Part shown: positions 14,344-38,608 of the stretch, in pieces
How positions within the stretch are numbered: the first letter of the stretch is position 1
Layout of the letters: each line of letters opens with the position of its first letter
Assembly: GCA_001512435.1 (NCBI GenBank)
Contig: LFRS01000183.1
Span: 1-45,915, forward strand
Length of the DNA: 45,915 bases
Source: Halothermothrix sp. DTU029
GTDB taxonomy: Bacteria; Bacillota; Halanaerobiia; Halanaerobiales; DTU029
Direction of reading: 5' to 3'
Program-made: the position numbers and the translations under genes
Notes under the pieces: model-generated
Told to the model about the DNA's origin: nothing
Seen by the model: only the letters and a program-made list of their open reading frames with translations
Database searches by the model: none

Positions 14344-14832
14344 TTACAGGGGGTATTTTCTGATTACCCCACAGGCCAGTCTTTTTCCAGCATTCCCTGC
14401 CGGCTGGCTCCGATAGTCATCAGGGTTTTCATGGATAATTACGGAACGGCCAAGTACATCAATAGGTTTAAATCTATTGGTGAAAAAACACATTCTGGCT
14501 ACCCCATTATTGGAAAATAGAACCGGGAAATCACCGGCATGGTTGCCATGGGGTTGGTTGTCTGGGTTCCAGTGGCCACCGGCTGCTAAAAAAGGATTAT
14601 CTGGATCACCAATCTCACAGGTGCCATTTTCATGGAGATGGAATCCATGGGGGCCGACTGGATTGGCATTTGTAGCTGCCTGGTAGGGAGGCAAACCCCT
14701 TATATCTGCACATACCAGGGTCCCGCCAGGGGCATTATAAAAATTAACGACACCTCTGATAGAGGGAGCCAGAGGACCTCCCCTTAGATTGGCCCTGATC
14801 GGGGCCGGTTTTCTTCTGAAGAGATAAAACAT
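14344..14832 (-). CDS. Superoxide dismutase family protein (Cu/Zn type)
   Basis: GPHGFHLHENGTC, AAGGHWNPDNQPHGNHAGD, SVIIHENPDDYRSQPAGNAGKRLACGVI: the expected metal-ligand positions and both disulfide-type cysteines are present. SD gggggaaa. Confidence 0.88.
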   Translation of the reverse strand: MFYLFRRKPAPIRANLRGGPLAPSIRGVVNFYNAPGGTLVCADIRGLPPYQAATNANPVGPHGFHLHENGTCEIGDPDNPFLAAGGHWNPDNQPHGNHAGDFPVLFSNNGVARMCFFTNRFKPIDVLGRSVIIHENPDDYRSQPAGNAGKRLACGVIRKYPL

Positions 14833-27046: not shown

Positions 27047-27136
27047 ATTTTGCAGGAAGATGATCTTTTGTTTATAATTTTAATTAGATAGTTTTAATTA
27101 TATAGACAAATATAATAAGCAGGAAAGGATTTAAAG

Positions 27137-28456
27137 ATGAATTATACATATGAAAAGAAAGTAGAGACATTGGTAAGCTATTTTAAGAAGTGTGAAAAAG
27201 ATCCTCTTGATTTTAAGCTTGGCCTTGAACTGGAACATTTTCTGCTGGAGGAGGATAGCTATAGGGCTGTACCCTATTCAGGTGATAAAGGTGTAGAGGG
27301 CTTTCTCCAGGCACTGCTGGCAGAAGGCTGGGAAGGGATTTATGAGGGAGAATCTCTTCTTGCTTTGAAAGGAAAAAATATGCATATTACGCTGGAACCA
27401 GGAGGACAACTGGAATTGAGCCTGGTTCCTGCCAGGGATATCAAGGAAATAGAAGAGATTTATCAGGTTTTTTTAAATACTATTAGTCCTATTTTAAAGG
27501 ATAGGGGACAGGTATTAGTAAACCTGGGCTATCAGCCAGTCAGTAAAATTGCAGAAATTCCCTTATTACCTAAAGAGAGATATAAGTATATGTATAATTA
27601 TTTTAAAAGCAAAGGCAAATATGCCCATAATATGATGAAAGGAACCTCCTCAATACAGCTTAGCCTGGATTATTCCAGTGAGGAGGATTTAAGGAAAAAA
27701 ATCAGGGTTGTCTATTTTCTTGCCCCCCTGGTCTATTATTTTTTTGATAATAGTCCTTTTTTTGAAGGCAAATTAAATGAGATAAATAGCCTGCGTTCCC
27801 TGATCTGGGATAATTGTGATGATGACCGGAGCGGCTATGTTTTGAATGTCTTTAATGATGATTTTACCTATTATGATTATGCCCACTACATCTTAAATAT
27901 GCCCCCTATAATTATCATGAAAAATGGGAATTTACTATATACCGCTGAAAAACAGAATAAAGATATTGGAGAGATTGATTTCAGGCAAAGGGATGAAGTG
28001 GATCATCTTTTGACTATGGCTTTTCCCGATGCCAGGGTCAAAAAATATCTGGAGATCCGGATGGGAGACTCTATACCCTACCCCTATAATCTGGCCTATG
28101 TGCTTTTCTGGCAGGGTTTACTTTACAATAATAAAAACTTAGATTCTCTCTATGAAAAGGCTCTAAATTATAGTCAGGCAGACCTTGATAGGGTAAAAGA
28201 GGATATTTATCTCAAGGGTAGCAGGTCCAGGGGCTATGGGCCAGGCCTGGAGGAATTTTATTTGTCTTTATTAGAACTGGCCCAGGATGGTCTGGAAAAT
28301 AGATATGAAAAAGAATATCTGGAAGTCCTGCGGGAACTGGTACTGGATGCCGGTACCCCAAGAGAGAAAACCATCAGGAAACTTAAAAGAGGTAATGAAC
28401 TGAAAAAGGCTCTGGAATGGTGTAAGGCAGGAGGAGGGGTTTCTATTGTTGGCTAA
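27137..28456 (+). CDS. Glutamate--cysteine ligase-like protein (GCS2/plant-type carboxylate-amine ligase family)
   Basis: GLELEHFLLEED; KNMHITLEPGGQLELSL; MMKGTSSIQLSLDYSSEEDLRKKIRV; LIWDNCDDDRSG; FPDARVKKYLEIRMGDSIP. Confidence 0.8.
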   Translation: MNYTYEKKVETLVSYFKKCEKDPLDFKLGLELEHFLLEEDSYRAVPYSGDKGVEGFLQALLAEGWEGIYEGESLLALKGKNMHITLEPGGQLELSLVPARDIKEIEEIYQVFLNTISPILKDRGQVLVNLGYQPVSKIAEIPLLPKERYKYMYNYFKSKGKYAHNMMKGTSSIQLSLDYSSEEDLRKKIRVVYFLAPLVYYFFDNSPFFEGKLNEINSLRSLIWDNCDDDRSGYVLNVFNDDFTYYDYAHYILNMPPIIIMKNGNLLYTAEKQNKDIGEIDFRQRDEVDHLLTMAFPDARVKKYLEIRMGDSIPYPYNLAYVLFWQGLLYNNKNLDSLYEKALNYSQADLDRVKEDIYLKGSRSRGYGPGLEEFYLSLLELAQDGLENRYEKEYLEVLRELVLDAGTPREKTIRKLKRGNELKKALEWCKAGGGVSIVG

Positions 28457-29771
28457 GGTACAGAATCAATTTAGAAACATAATAGAGAGGGAACCGGAAA
28501 AGTATTATGCTGATTTTTTGCAGTGTAAAGAAAAGGTTAATAATTCAACAGCCATTTATAAAGATAAAGTGGTAAATTTTCTCTACCAGGGACTTTTTTT
28601 CAGTGAAGGAGATTTCAAAGAATTAGAACTTTTGCTAGAGGGGATTACTGATATTTTAAATAAGGTAATCAGGGCATATAAAGAAAATCCCGGTTTCCGG
28701 AAACTTTTCCCTTTTTCCCCTTTGATGGAAGAACTGATCCTTATAGAAACTGGTTATCAGGTGAATTTTCCTATGGGGAGGTTTGATATTTTCTATAAGG
28801 ACAATGGTGAGCATATCTTCTGTGAACTGAATACAGATGGTTCATCAGCCATGAACGAGATCAGGGTTTTGCAGGAGGTTATGGGGGAAAGCCAGGTCTT
28901 TGTTGAACTGAAAAAAACTTATGAATTAAAGGGTTTTGAGTTATTTGAAAGCTGGCTGGAGGAATTGATCAAAAATTATAAGGAATTTAACAATGGAATA
29001 GATGACAAACCCAATATAGGTATTCTTGACTTCACAGAAGATGGGACCATCTATGAATTCAGGGAATTTCAAAAAGTATTTCAGGAAAAGGGCTATAATA
29101 CCTTTATCTGTGACCCCCGGGAACTGAGTTATAAAGGGGGAAAACTTTATTATAAGGATAACTGGATTAGATTGATTTACCGGCGGGCTACTACCATGAG
29201 GTTAGTGGAGGAAGCAGGCCAGATAGGGGATTTCCTGACTGCCTACAGGGAGGGGGCTGTCTGTGTTGTTGGAGGACTGGTTTCCCAGCTGGTCCACAAT
29301 AAAGTCCTTTTTGCTATCCTTCATGATCAGAATAAAGTGGATTTTTTAACAGAGGGAGAAAAGGAATATATTAAAAGACATATACCTTATACTGCCCTGC
29401 TGGATGTAAATGAAGAAGATACTATAAAAAGGCTAATTGAGGAAAAAGACCACTGGATTTTGAAACCCCTTGACCTATATGCAGGAAAGGGAGTTTATGC
29501 TGGCAGGGATTTTACTCCTCCTGAGTGGGAAAGAATAATAAGAGGCCTGGGGGATAAAGAATATATTTACCAGGAGTTTATAGAAATACCTGTTTTACCA
29601 ATGCTTAATTTTGCTGAAAACAAGGGTTTTGAGAATTTTGGCTTTTTACTGGGTTTATATACCTATAATCACAGGTTGGCTGGCCTCTATACCAGGGCAG
29701 GCAGGAAGAATATCATTGGTGATATAGCGGAGAGCTTTACAGTACCTAATTTTATCTGTAAGGAAGTCTAA
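28446..29771 (+). CDS. ATP-grasp enzyme, glutathionylspermidine-synthase-like / circularly permuted type
   Basis: NFPMGRFDIFYKDNGEHIFCELNTDGSSAMNEIRVLQEV; HWILKPLDLYAGKGVYAGRDFTPPEWERII; overlaps the upstream gene by 11 bp; SD ggaggaggg before TTG 28446/28449. Confidence 0.7.
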   Translation: MLAKVQNQFRNIIEREPEKYYADFLQCKEKVNNSTAIYKDKVVNFLYQGLFFSEGDFKELELLLEGITDILNKVIRAYKENPGFRKLFPFSPLMEELILIETGYQVNFPMGRFDIFYKDNGEHIFCELNTDGSSAMNEIRVLQEVMGESQVFVELKKTYELKGFELFESWLEELIKNYKEFNNGIDDKPNIGILDFTEDGTIYEFREFQKVFQEKGYNTFICDPRELSYKGGKLYYKDNWIRLIYRRATTMRLVEEAGQIGDFLTAYREGAVCVVGGLVSQLVHNKVLFAILHDQNKVDFLTEGEKEYIKRHIPYTALLDVNEEDTIKRLIEEKDHWILKPLDLYAGKGVYAGRDFTPPEWERIIRGLGDKEYIYQEFIEIPVLPMLNFAENKGFENFGFLLGLYTYNHRLAGLYTRAGRKNIIGDIAESFTVPNFICKEV

Positions 29772-29791: not shown

Positions 29792-29821
29792 AAAAGGAAT
29801 AGAAAATATTCTATTCCTTTT
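29792..29821. terminator. Bidirectional terminator between convergent genes
   Basis: AAAAGGAATAGAA-aata-TTCTATTCCTTTT perfect 13-bp stem. Confidence 0.8.
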
Positions 29822-33974: not shown

Positions 33975-34772
33975 ATGAAAAAAAGAGTTCTGGTTAATGG
34001 GGCCTGTGGCAGAATGGGCCAGGAAGTAGTAAAAACCATAGTTCTGGAAAGAGATGATTTGCTGGTAGGGGTCTGTGACCAGGTTAATATTGGCAGGAAT
34101 TTAATGGACCTGTTGGGACTTGAGGCTGAAGAGCTTATCATTAAAGGGGATTTAAGACAATTAATTGAGGAAACAAGGCCAGATGTAATTATAGATTTTA
34201 CAACACCTACTGTAGTTATGGATAATATTAGAATTGGCCTGGCCAGTGGAGTTGATATGATAGTTGGGACAACCGGTATAACCGAGGTAGATCTGGAAAG
34301 TATAGATAAACTGGCCAGGGAAAATAAGGCCAATATCTTAATTGCCCCTAATTTTGCTCTAGGTGCAGTCTTGATGATGCGTTTTGCTGCAGAAGCTGCT
34401 AAATATATATATGATGTGGAAATAATTGAATTACATCATGATCAAAAATTAGATTCTCCTTCCGGTACTGCTATCAAAACAGCTGAACTGATTAAGCAAA
34501 ATAGAAAAGAAATGAGGGTTATAGAGCAAGAAGAGATTGAAAAAATCACTGGTGCCAGAGGGGCTGATGCAGAGGGGATTAAAATACATAGTGTACGTCT
34601 GCCAGGCCTGGTGGCCCACCAGGAAGTTATCTTTGGGGCTGAGGGACAAAGCCTATCTATTAGACATGATTCCTATAATAGGAAATCTTTCATGCCAGGT
34701 GTAAAACTGGCCCTGGATAAAATTGACCAGATTTCTGGGCTGGTTTATGGCCTGGAACATTTACTTGCCTGA
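33975..34772 (+). CDS. dapB: 4-hydroxy-tetrahydrodipicolinate reductase
   Basis: VLVNGACGRMGQEVV; IELHHDQKLDSPSGTAIKTAELI. Confidence 0.95.
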   Translation: MKKRVLVNGACGRMGQEVVKTIVLERDDLLVGVCDQVNIGRNLMDLLGLEAEELIIKGDLRQLIEETRPDVIIDFTTPTVVMDNIRIGLASGVDMIVGTTGITEVDLESIDKLARENKANILIAPNFALGAVLMMRFAAEAAKYIYDVEIIELHHDQKLDSPSGTAIKTAELIKQNRKEMRVIEQEEIEKITGARGADAEGIKIHSVRLPGLVAHQEVIFGAEGQSLSIRHDSYNRKSFMPGVKLALDKIDQISGLVYGLEHLLA

Positions 34773-34867
34773 TTAAATTTAACACAGGGACAATTTAATA
34801 TAAAATACACCTCCCCAAAAGGAGAAAAGACAGGTTTCTTTAAGCCCTAGCTGCTTAAATAATTTGC

Positions 34868-34894
34868 ACTTCCCATCAGGAAAATACATATACT
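34868..34894 (+). promoter_or_regulatory. Putative SigK-like promoter of dpaAB
   Basis: AC (34868-34869) - 17 bp - CATATACT (34887-34894), matching AC-N17-CATAnnnT. Confidence 0.45.
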
Positions 34895-34936
34895 GTACTG
34901 TATATTCTAATGGTCTGGTTGGGAGGAGGAAAGAAA

Positions 34937-35797
34937 ATAAAAATCGCAATTATCGGTGGAGATCGTAGGGAAGAGATCCTGGTAGAAATTCTTGCAGAAC
35001 GGGGTTATCAGGTAGCAGTTTTTTCAGATCGGCCATTAAAGGGGGCTAATCTTTTTATCTCCAGTGATATAGAAAAAGTAGTTAAGGATGCCCAAGTAAT
35101 TATTGCACCGATGTCCAGTACAGATGAAAACTTGTATTTAAAAAACACTTTTGTTGAGAAGAAAATTCAATTAAATGAGGGTTTTTTTAATCTATTAAAA
35201 AAAGATACCTTATTTATGATTGGTTTTGCAAATCCCAAGCTGAAAAGATTAATGGAAGAAAAAGGTATGAATTATCTTGAATTAGCCCGTCTGGATGAAC
35301 TGGCCATACTGAATGCGATACCAACTGCCGAAGGTGCAATTAAAATAGCCATTGAGGAAACAGATATAACACTTTATGCCAGTAAGATACTGGTCTATGG
35401 TCTAGGTAAAGTTGGCCTTACTCTGGCCTGGCGATTAAAGGCCCTGGGAGCAGATACTTATGGGGTAACAAGAAACAGAGCAGCTATAGCCAGAGGGAAG
35501 GATCTTGGCATAAAGATGCTTAATTATGCTTCCTTAAATAAATATCTGCCAGATATGGATATTTTATTTAATACTGCACCAGCCCTGCTTATTGATAAAG
35601 AAGCTATTGCCCTTTTAAAAGAAGAGGCAGTTATAATTGACCTGGCTTCTGCTCCTGGCGGAACGGATTTTTCAGCAGCCAGGGAAAGGGGGATAAAGGC
35701 AATATTGGCACCCGGCTTACCTGGCAAGATAGCCCCAGTAAGTGCTGGAAGAATACTTGCTAATCTTATTCCGGAATTAATTGCAGAGTATTTCTAA
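34937..35797 (+). CDS. dpaA: Dipicolinate synthase subunit A
   Basis: KIAIIGGDRREEILVEILAERGYQV; ILVYGLGKVGLTLAWRLKALGA; DLASAPGGTDFSAARERGIKAILAPGLPGKIAPVSAGRI. ORF-track start is ATG 34910, but GGAGG (34925-34929) is spaced for codon 34937 (ATA). Confidence 0.92.
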   Translation: MKIAIIGGDRREEILVEILAERGYQVAVFSDRPLKGANLFISSDIEKVVKDAQVIIAPMSSTDENLYLKNTFVEKKIQLNEGFFNLLKKDTLFMIGFANPKLKRLMEEKGMNYLELARLDELAILNAIPTAEGAIKIAIEETDITLYASKILVYGLGKVGLTLAWRLKALGADTYGVTRNRAAIARGKDLGIKMLNYASLNKYLPDMDILFNTAPALLIDKEAIALLKEEAVIIDLASAPGGTDFSAARERGIKAILAPGLPGKIAPVSAGRILANLIPELIAEYF

Positions 35798-35842
35798 ATG
35801 CTTATCCAGGCTGTTCGTTTCCTTTTAAGGAGGTGAATTTAT

Positions 35843-36436
35843 TTGGATTTAAAAGGTAAGAAAATCGGCTTTGCCATTACCGGTTCTTTTTGTACTCTGG
35901 ACAAAACAATCCTGGCCCTGGAGGAATTTGTTAATTCTGGGGCAGACCTGATTCCTATAGTCTCTGATGCCATTAAAAGCTATGATACCAAATATGGTAC
36001 TGCCAGGGAATGGCTGGATAAGATAAAAGAAATTAGTAGAAATAATATAATTGATTCTATAGTAAAAGCAGAACCTATTGGACCAGAAAAGATGTTGGAT
36101 TTGTTGATTATAGCTCCCTGTACTGGAAATACTATGGCCAAGATAGCCAATGGTATTATTGATGAAACCGTAGTAATGGCGGCAAAGGCTCATCTCCGTA
36201 ATGAAAGACCCCTTTTAATAGCTATTGCAACCAATGATGGCTTAGGCTTAAATGCCAAGAATTTAGGTATTTTATTAAATACAAAAAATGTCTTCTTTGT
36301 TCCCTTTGGTCAGGATAATCCCTTTGAAAAAAAGAATTCACTGGTTTCCAGGTTTGACCTGATTAAAAAGGCTGCAGAATATGCCCTGGAATATAAACAG
36401 ATTCAACCGGTTTTAATAGAATATAGAGGGATATGA
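35843..36436 (+). CDS. dpaB: Dipicolinate synthase subunit B
   Basis: KIGFAITGSFCTLDK; LLIIAPCTGNTMAKIANGIIDETVVMAAKAHLRNERPLLIAIATNDGL; SD aaggaggtga, TTG start. Confidence 0.95.
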   Translation: MDLKGKKIGFAITGSFCTLDKTILALEEFVNSGADLIPIVSDAIKSYDTKYGTAREWLDKIKEISRNNIIDSIVKAEPIGPEKMLDLLIIAPCTGNTMAKIANGIIDETVVMAAKAHLRNERPLLIAIATNDGLGLNAKNLGILLNTKNVFFVPFGQDNPFEKKNSLVSRFDLIKKAAEYALEYKQIQPVLIEYRGI

Positions 36437-36465
36437 TTGTATTAGATAATGGATTATGATAAAAT
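36437..36465 (+). promoter_or_regulatory. Vegetative promoter of dapG-dapA
   Basis: TTGTAT (36437-36442) - 17 bp - TAAAAT (36460-36465). Confidence 0.5.
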
Positions 36466-36505
36466 ATATTATAATTTTAATTGGCCTGTTTAGCAGGAGG
36501 TTTTT

Positions 36506-37714
36506 ATGAAAAAAATAGTTCAGAAATTTGGTGGAAGTTCCCTGAATAGCGCAGAAAAAAGGGAAATGGTAGTTAAACATATTGAGAAGGCAATAAAAAT
36601 GGGTTATAAACCAGTAGTAGTAGTTTCAGCCATGGGCAGGCTGGGGGAACCATATGCTACAGATACCTTGATAGAAGTAGCCAGTGAAATAAATAAGGGT
36701 ATTGATAACAGGGAAAAAGATCTATTGATGTCCTGTGGGGAAATAATCTCAACAATTGTACTGGTCCAGACCCTGAAAAAGGCTGGCATAGAAGCAATTG
36801 CCCTGACAGGAGCCCAGGCGGGCATCTATACAGATGATAGTTTTGGCGAAGCAGAGATAATAAGGGTTGTACCAGATAAGGTCAATAAAACATTAAAAGA
36901 AGGGAAAATACCTGTTATAGCAGGTTTTCAGGGTATTACTGAAGATGGTGAGATAACTACCCTTGGCAGAGGGGGCAGTGATACAACAGCCAGTATTATT
37001 GCCGCTGCCATTGGTGCCTTATATATTGAGATCTATACAGATGTAGCCGGTGTAATGACAGCTGATCCGGCTCTGGTAGAATCGGCCCGTATCCTGGATG
37101 TAGTCACTTATAACGAGGTTTGTGAACTGGCTTATCAGGGGGCCAGGGTAATCCACCCCAGGGCAGCAGAGATAGCCATGAAGGAAAGAATACCTATTAA
37201 GATAAAATCAACCTTTAATGATGGTCCGGGAACCTTAATTAACAGTAATGGGATGCGTAAAATCAAAGGTGATCGGCCTGTTACAGGTGTAACCAGCCGC
37301 CGTAATATAGTTTTTATAAAGATAATACCGGAGAATCCAGTAGAATATGCCACTGGTTTATTGGTTTTTAGCCTCCTGGCTGAAAATGATATTAGTGTTG
37401 ATTTTATTAATATTCGTTCTGAAGCCACTTCTTTTATAATTGACAGCAAAAATAGGGAAAAAGTGGATGCTATACTTCAGGAACATAATTTTAATTATAA
37501 AATAAGGGATGATTTTGTAAAAGTTTCTGTAGTAGGTGGGGGAATGACTGGGCGGCCAGGAGTAATGGCAAAAATAGTTGAAGCTTTAAATAAGGAGAAG
37601 ATCAAGATTTACCAGACAACAGATTCACATACTACTATATCCTGTTTGGTTAAAAGAGAAAAAGAGAAAGAAGCCCTTAATGCACTTCATAGTATCTTTG
37701 AGTTAAATCTATAA
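36506..37714 (+). CDS. dapG: Aspartate kinase (DapG-type)
   Basis: KKIVQKFGGSSLNSAEKR; ITTLGRGGSDTTASIIAAAIGA; followed directly by dapA as in B. subtilis. Confidence 0.92.
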   Translation: MKKIVQKFGGSSLNSAEKREMVVKHIEKAIKMGYKPVVVVSAMGRLGEPYATDTLIEVASEINKGIDNREKDLLMSCGEIISTIVLVQTLKKAGIEAIALTGAQAGIYTDDSFGEAEIIRVVPDKVNKTLKEGKIPVIAGFQGITEDGEITTLGRGGSDTTASIIAAAIGALYIEIYTDVAGVMTADPALVESARILDVVTYNEVCELAYQGARVIHPRAAEIAMKERIPIKIKSTFNDGPGTLINSNGMRKIKGDRPVTGVTSRRNIVFIKIIPENPVEYATGLLVFSLLAENDISVDFINIRSEATSFIIDSKNREKVDAILQEHNFNYKIRDDFVKVSVVGGGMTGRPGVMAKIVEALNKEKIKIYQTTDSHTTISCLVKREKEKEALNALHSIFELNL

Positions 37715-37726
37715 AGAGGTGATAAA

Positions 37727-38608
37727 ATGGATAGTTTCGGGGAAGTATTGACAGCTATGGTTACACCTTTTAATGAGAAATTGGAGTTAGACCTGAAAAA
37801 GGCCAGGGAATTGGCTGCTTATCTGGTAGATAATGGTTCAGATGGCCTGGTTGTACTGGGAACAACAGGAGAATCTCCTACCCTTACTTATGAGGAAAAG
37901 GTAAGCTTATTGGAAACAGTAGTTGATGAAGTAGGAGACAGGGCAGTAGTAATTGCTGGAACTGGTTCTTATTCTACTGCCGAGAGTATTAAAATGACAG
38001 AAAAGGCTGAAGCTATAGGAGTAGATGGCATTATGCTGGTTACTCCCTATTACAATAAACCATCACAATCTGGCCTTTATTATCATTTTAAGGCAATTGC
38101 TGAAAAAACAAGACTCCCTATCATGCTCTATAATATCCCTGGCCGTACTGCCAGAAATATCGAAGTAGAGACCATGTTGGAATTATCTAAAATAGATAAT
38201 ATCATAGCAGTAAAAGAAGCCAGTGGAGACTTAAATCAGGTTTCCAAACTGAGCAGACTTTTACCTGATGATTTTCTGATTTATAGTGGTGATGATAGTT
38301 TATTATTACCGATTTTAGCTGTAGGTGGCGAGGGAGTTGTCAGTGTAGCTGCACATCTGGTGGGAAATGAAATCAAGCAAATGATTAGAGATTTTAAAAA
38401 TGGGGGACTGGAAGAGGCCATAGAGATGAACAGGAAACTGGGTCCTTTATTTGAAGCTCTTTTTATCACAACTAATCCAGTTCCTGTCAAAACAGCTTTA
38501 AACCTTATCGGTAGAGAAGTCGGAGGAGTAAGAGGGCCTTTGTATGCTATGAATGAGCAAGAAGAAAAGAGGCTTATAGAGGTATTAAAGGAGTATCAAC
38601 TCCTTTAA
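37727..38608 (+). CDS. dapA: 4-hydroxy-tetrahydrodipicolinate synthase
   Basis: GEVLTAMVTPFNEKLELD; LVVLGTTGESPTLTYEEK; LPIMLYNIPGRTARNIEVETMLELSKIDNIIAVKEASGD. Confidence 0.96.
   Translation: MDSFGEVLTAMVTPFNEKLELDLKKARELAAYLVDNGSDGLVVLGTTGESPTLTYEEKVSLLETVVDEVGDRAVVIAGTGSYSTAESIKMTEKAEAIGVDGIMLVTPYYNKPSQSGLYYHFKAIAEKTRLPIMLYNIPGRTARNIEVETMLELSKIDNIIAVKEASGDLNQVSKLSRLLPDDFLIYSGDDSLLLPILAVGGEGVVSVAAHLVGNEIKQMIRDFKNGGLEEAIEMNRKLGPLFEALFITTNPVPVKTALNLIGREVGGVRGPLYAMNEQEEKRLIEVLKEYQLL

Follow-up and report, generated by a model that had tools for sequence, protein, structure and literature searches.

A conserved pair of a GCS2-type glutamate-cysteine ligase and a circularly permuted ATP-grasp ligase as a probable variant of the glutathione pathway in anaerobic bacteria

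Closest described systems

Most Firmicutes are considered not to be glutathione users, GshF being the exception (PMC6272389, PMC4360819), and in haloarchaea gamma-Glu-Cys is itself the end thiol (PMC7278568). The gene pair discussed here, which encodes a GCS2-type glutamate-cysteine ligase (GCL) and an ATP-grasp ligase, is comparable with several described systems and identical to none of them. With the pathway of GshA of the plant/proteobacterial GCS2 type and GshB, it shares the Pfam family and fold of the first enzyme as well as the use of two separate, consecutive ligases. However, its second enzyme belongs to a different branch of ATP-grasp proteins and is not a GshB. The GshF (GshAB fusion) of Firmicutes would yield the same product if the terminal residue X of gamma-Glu-Cys-X is glycine, but its GCL and ATP-grasp domains are unrelated to those of the pair, which is encoded by two separate open reading frames.

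The ATP-grasp protein has its fold, the Pfam family PF03738 and a set of catalytic residues in common with GspS (E. coli Gss), YgiC and YjfC. Like YgiC and YjfC and unlike the bifunctional GspS, it has no amidase domain, since Pfam scans gave no match to a CHAP/amidase domain in its 441 residues. It differs from all three in that its gene forms an operon with that of a glutamate-cysteine ligase. The eukaryotic GSH and homoGSH synthetases (2hgs, 1m0w, 5oes and 3kal) have the same circularly permuted ATP-grasp fold, with equal significance in Foldseek searches, and in them, as in the ATP-grasp protein, the cysteine of gamma-EC is surrounded by an arginine and small residues. Nevertheless, the latter is only 12–16% identical to these enzymes and does not match their Pfam families, PF03917 and PF03199, for which no match was found in the protein itself up to E = 1 or in 15 of its relatives up to E = 0.1. 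The best sequence match in the PDB to the profile of the ATP-grasp family (E = 9e-07) is Cp1B (9cjn), the fungal E-64 ATP-grasp ligase, which is also close in fold. Cp1B, however, is a natural-product enzyme that acts on epoxysuccinate and has no GCL partner (PMC12568646).

The locus and its two enzymes

The pair is located on the forward strand of the window, i.e., the whole stretch of 45,915 nucleotides of Halothermothrix sp. DTU029 (contig LFRS01000183.1) that was analysed (Table 1). Both open reading frames claimed in the earlier note were found exactly as described, including their overlap of 11 bp. The translational coupling suggested there is supported. In nearly all relatives, the genes overlap or are separated by only a few base pairs, whilst the outer neighbors vary by lineage. 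A promoter-like sequence precedes the first gene, but such sites are no more frequent in the region than in shuffled sequences, and its weight is therefore uncertain. The inverted repeat behind the pair is, by its sequence, a possible two-way terminator. The flanking genes encode, according to profile matches, a beta-aspartyl-peptidase, an M18 aminopeptidase and TauE, none of which is kept as a neighbor of the pair in the other loci compared. Judged by the gene pair's own relatives, which come from Halanaerobiaceae and Halanaerobiales MAGs, the window is part of a Halanaerobiales genome.

Table 1. Features of the gene pair and the adjoining DNA, in positions of the window
Feature	Position	Strand	Remarks
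GCS2-type glutamate-cysteine ligase gene	27137..28456	+	ATG start, 439 aa
Circularly permuted ATP-grasp ligase gene	28446..29771	+	TTG start, 441 aa
Reading-frame overlap, 11 bp	28446..28456	+	GGAGGAGG precedes TTG start of ATP-grasp gene
Promoter-like TTTGCA-18 nt-TATAAT	27049..27078	+	58 bp upstream of GCS2 start, 10/12 consensus positions
13-bp inverted repeat AAAAGGAATAGAAAATATTCTATTCCTTTT	29792..29821	.	Between convergent ATP-grasp and TauE genes

Two further features of the window are mentioned here in passing. A gene for a copper/zinc superoxide dismutase (14344-14832, minus strand; PF00080, 112 bits) is unusual for an anaerobic order. On the plus strand, a row of genes for dapB, dipicolinate synthase A (DpaA_N) with a B-like flavoprotein, aspartokinase and dapA (33975-38608) suggests a spore-forming ancestry.

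The assignment of the first protein to the GCS2 family in the earlier note is far above chance. The protein matches PF04107 with 133.4 bits (cut-off 21), and plant GCL structures match it at E about 1e-56 in sequence searches. Its best model is the plant/proteobacterial TIGR01436 (E = 1.6e-76), with the EgtA and YbdK models well behind. All 57 relatives scanned match TIGR01436 as well, and the score of the protein, 257.5 bits, lies below the equivalog cut-off of 463.15. The AlphaFold2 model (pLDDT 94.9) superimposes on Brassica GCL (2gwc) with a TM of 0.90, an rmsd of 2.4–2.9 and 28–30% identity; the second-ranked fold match is YbdK, with a TM of 0.60. The segment LEPGGQxELS is intact. Judged by these profiles and the model, the protein is closer to genuine glutamate-cysteine ligases than to YbdK, and its homologues appear as a distinct subgroup within that family. 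The genome contains a single copy of the GCS2 gene.

The match of the second protein to PF03738 (GSP_synth), its best Pfam family, is marginal (30.6 bits, cut-off 29.3). The GSP_synth-like assignment made in the earlier note is nevertheless backed by PF03738 matches in all 15 relatives scanned and by the fold search. Models of circularly permuted ATP-grasp domains gave weaker matches, and no NCBIfam family reached its cut-off. The scores against GshB models were low as well, i.e., 14.2 bits for PF02955 (cut-off 23) and 14.3 for TIGR01380 (cut-off 299), with PF02951 remaining below level. Foldseek searches with the AlphaFold2 model (pLDDT 94.1) returned 2io7, 3kal, 5oes, 1m0w and 9cjn at E-values of 1e-14 to 1e-15. 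GspS, soybean homoglutathione synthetase, potato and yeast glutathione synthetase, Cp1B and YjfC were thus matched with TM values of 0.59–0.69 and near-equal significance, and comparison with 2hgs and 1m0w gave E-values of 2e-14 to 4e-14 and a TM of about 0.65. The potato and yeast structures carry bound gamma-EC.

The catalytic residues, checked against those of GspS, are intact. In the alignment, R316, D318, E330, N332, S337, K498, K533 and R598 of E. coli GspS, the catalytic and metal-binding roles of which were taken from a review (PMC6272389) and from knowledge of the family, correspond to R112, D114, E127, N129, S134, K286, K340 and R417, respectively. All 59 relatives compared have the same residue at each of these eight positions. 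Even two much more distant relatives keep nearly all of them, S134 being replaced in one. From sequence and model together, the protein is best called a member of a GspS/eukaryotic-GS-like subfamily of ATP-grasp proteins that lies outside the named GS sequence families.

Conservation of the pair and its genomic setting

The GCS2 gene and the ATP-grasp gene form a real conserved unit. A scan with one genome per species yielded 261 relatives, and 80 loci were kept. Of the 77 loci with enough sequence upstream, 72 have the GCS2 gene directly before the ATP-grasp gene on the same strand, a count that takes in one locus (L095) recovered once an antisense open reading frame had been removed. The pair is found in Clostridia, Halanaerobiales, Cloacimonadota and Mcinerneyibacteriota. 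Among 249 genomes of Tissierellales, the ATP-grasp gene is present in 116, GCS2 in 137, and both in 113. The two genes are adjacent in 95 of these 113 genomes and are located 14–20 kb apart on one contig in four more. Three carriers of the ATP-grasp gene have no GCS2 match, and in at least two of them (G153 and G217) the gene region ends at a contig edge. The co-occurrence corresponds to a Fisher p of 3e-42, a value which ignores shared ancestry and shows direction only. The two protein trees have correlated distances (r = 0.67) and 37 of 64 splits in common, and the pairs of Cloacimonadota and Mcinerneyibacteriota have similar neighbors in both trees. The earlier note had set a lack of conservation beforehand as a possible refutation, and conservation held. 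Seemingly unpaired loci were accounted for by contig edges, antisense open reading frames or genuinely unlinked copies. A phage or viral origin was discarded, as no match was found in phages or viral contigs.

A diverged pair is present on plasmid pSRC2 of Selenomonas ruminantium (L143:2002-6344), where a MATE gene is located between the GCS2 and ATP-grasp genes in one run. The presence of this efflux transporter suggests that the cells may export the product or conjugates of it. The ATP-grasp relative on a Selenomonas plasmid was the only annotated one found, and it is labeled a hypothetical protein. In 21 loci of the Alkaliphilus/Natronincola group (L030, L033, L036, L058, L060 and others), the pair is followed by a gene for an AI-2E-type membrane permease. 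One contig titled as a Flavobacteriales MAG (L049; JAGXRF010000025.1) has the gene content of Alkaliphilus neighborhoods and, for that reason, is probably a binning error rather than from Bacteroidota.

The absence of canonical GshB, claimed earlier from the window alone, holds for the whole assembly (95.6% complete), in which PF02955 has no match. The same assembly contains no match to PF04262, i.e., no GshF. In the carrier genomes searched for GshB, PF02955 gave weak matches or none, and those strong matches that were inspected proved RimK/MptN-like and were rejected, so that none of these carriers has GshB. In Tissierellales, GshF-type PF04262 proteins are encoded in 4 of the 249 genomes, none of which has the pair, so the absence of GshF extends to the pair carriers of this order.

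An unrelated glutamate-cysteine ligase is found near the ATP-grasp gene in Formimonas warabiya, the genome of which lacks GCS2. Here, the ATP-grasp gene is convergent to the genome's only PF04262 glutamate-cysteine ligase gene, at 1.7 kb. The encoded enzyme is an E. coli-type GshA (TIGR01434, 405 bits; cut-off 393). This gshA gene groups with that of an ABC transporter, and as the same unit occurs in another genome (G004) without an ATP-grasp gene beside it, the Formimonas case is one of proximity and not of an operon. Still, the presence of an unrelated, E. coli-type ligase beside the ATP-grasp gene suggests gamma-glutamylcysteine as substrate or shared intermediate. An E. coli-type glutamate-cysteine ligase beside an ABC-2-type transporter pair was noted in two distant genomes (L029:7341-10567, minus strand; L142:5255-8433, plus strand) and possibly represents a separate unit for the export or modification of gamma-Glu-Cys.

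Both genes also occur alone. GCS2 without an ATP-grasp partner is found in Halanaerobium-like genomes (L102:6367-7644 in G010 and L103:6469-7728 in G014) and in about 22 Tissierellales genomes, often directly before radA. In one Tissierellales lineage (L120-L122, L126 and L128), the lone or unlinked GCS2 gene is located immediately upstream of a RadA-like gene, which constitutes another conserved pairing. Conversely, two genomes (G001 and G141) contain an ATP-grasp gene without any glutamate-cysteine ligase. Distant ATP-grasp relatives (about 28–34% identity) are encoded directly behind the ATP synthase operon at L140:6442-7800 and L141:2018-3112, with no adjoining GCL gene; these may have a separate function.

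Proposed pathway and alternative readings

We consider the pair a self-contained route that leads to gamma-Glu-Cys-X in two steps, the second catalyzed by a non-canonical enzyme, with a probability of about 0.62 and with X most simply being glycine. The probability left over by glutathione, another terminal residue and a polyamine conjugate is spread over readings that do not join the two proteins in such a route. The gene anatomy, the folds, the intact catalytic residues, the co-inheritance and the absence of GshB and GshF are observations; the substrates, the sequence of the two reactions and the nature of the terminal amine are inferred from the folds, the conserved residues and knowledge of the families, as follows. 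The GCS2 enzyme would use ATP to form gamma-glutamyl phosphate, which is then attacked by cysteine to yield gamma-Glu-Cys. The ATP-grasp enzyme would subsequently phosphorylate the cysteine carboxylate of gamma-Glu-Cys; GspS phosphorylates the C-terminus of GSH (PMC6272389). Attack of a small amine X, most simply glycine, on the activated intermediate would then produce gamma-Glu-Cys-X, i.e., glutathione or a homologue of it. Thus, the ATP-grasp enzyme would be an analogue of GshB, built on the fold of GspS and eukaryotic glutathione synthetase, and not a homologue at the level of sequence families.

Glycine is the parsimonious choice, as it gives glutathione and as eukaryotic GS has the same fold. 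Plain GSH made via a non-homologous equivalent of GshB is therefore the simplest reading, and the odds that glutathione itself is the product are slightly short of even. The family is divergent enough to make beta-alanine, serine or another small amine possible. The earlier note had raised the possibility of a product other than ordinary glutathione. This is not established, since the fold of the ATP-grasp protein is equally near to the eukaryotic GSH and homoGSH synthetases and to GspS.

The alternative that holds up best, though it is still tentative, is that the product is a new thiol in which X is neither glycine nor a polyamine, comparable with the beta-alanine of homoglutathione. In known GS enzymes, e.g., homoGSH synthetase (PMC5919673), it is the terminal residue that varies, and the ATP-grasp protein belongs to a sequence family apart from every named GS family. 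Furthermore, the carriers are not enriched in GSH-dependent enzymes. Six loci, from Halobacteroidaceae and Desulfotomaculum relatives, have a gene for GloA (lactoylglutathione lyase) next to the pair in divergent orientation, but the genome-wide presence of GloA in Tissierellales is uncorrelated with that of the ATP-grasp gene (Fisher p = 0.68). As a functional marker, glyoxalase I thus gives weak support only. GSH peroxidase was dismissed as a marker too, since few carriers had matches to it at full strength, and neither enzyme was found in the genome of the window. GSH-using enzymes, in short, do not track the pair, which also weighs against the proposed pathway, as do the GCS2 genes without an ATP-grasp partner and the ATP-grasp genes without any glutamate-cysteine ligase. 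Against a new thiol, the conserved surroundings of the pair include no gene that would supply an unusual amine, and the commonest acceptor in known pathways is glycine. It is a speculative further step, and doubtful, that the pair makes an undescribed low-molecular-weight thiol that serves as the principal thiol buffer of many strictly anaerobic Firmicutes, Halanaerobiales and Cloacimonadota.

The transfer of gamma-Glu-Cys or glutathione to a polyamine, as GspS, YgiC and YjfC do with spermidine, appears improbable. It would agree with PF03738 being the best Pfam family and with GspS leading the Foldseek matches by E-value; also, YgiC and YjfC are peptide-spermidine ligases according to Pederick (2023), as cited in PMC12568646. 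In GspS, however, the cationic tail of spermidine is accommodated by the acids Asp387, Asp389, Glu391 and Glu392 (PMC6272389). In a weak alignment of this loop, a single invariant acid (D195) of the ATP-grasp family falls on these positions, and roughly one third of the members have an acid opposite Glu391 and Glu392. In addition, WKT of GspS is replaced throughout the family by YRR. The apparent lack of conservation of the acidic pocket makes a polyamine acceptor, and with it the polyamine conjugate given as an example in the earlier note, less likely, although the argument is only modest because the loop aligns poorly.

About equally improbable is that the two proteins do not serve one pathway at all. 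Gamma-Glu-Cys would then be the end thiol, as it is in haloarchaea, with the ATP-grasp enzyme ligating unrelated peptides. The occurrence of GCS2 alone in Halanaerobium and in the lineage with GCS2 before radA, and of distant ATP-grasp relatives alone behind the ATP synthase operon, would fit such a separation, and in genomes with GCS2 only, gamma-Glu-Cys alone may indeed suffice or be the end product. However, this reading is difficult to reconcile with the co-occurrence and adjacency of the overlapping genes in Tissierellales, with the matching tree distances and with the proximity of the ATP-grasp gene to gshA in Formimonas. Least probable of all is that the GCS2 homologue ligates the gamma-glutamyl group to a substrate other than cysteine, the ATP-grasp enzyme extending a product that is not a thiol: the homologues do form a subgroup of their own with a TIGR01436 score far below the equivalog level (257 vs. 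463), but the similarity to plant GCL in sequence and fold, the intact LEPGGQxELS segment and the genuine GshA beside the same ATP-grasp gene in Formimonas argue against it.

No description of the gene pair was found in the open full-text literature, which was the range of the search. The pair represents a variant of the glutathione-type pathway that is real, widespread and uncharacterised, a conserved two-gene route present in almost one in two of the Tissierellales genomes analysed and in many Halanaerobiales, whilst current annotation hides its second ligase. The low-molecular-weight thiol of strictly anaerobic Firmicutes is a largely unsettled matter, and the pair may reveal which protective thiol they use. 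If the product is glutathione, the pair would represent another independent bacterial solution to the second step of its synthesis; if not, the product would be a new thiol. Either way, two small proteins make the thiol question testable.
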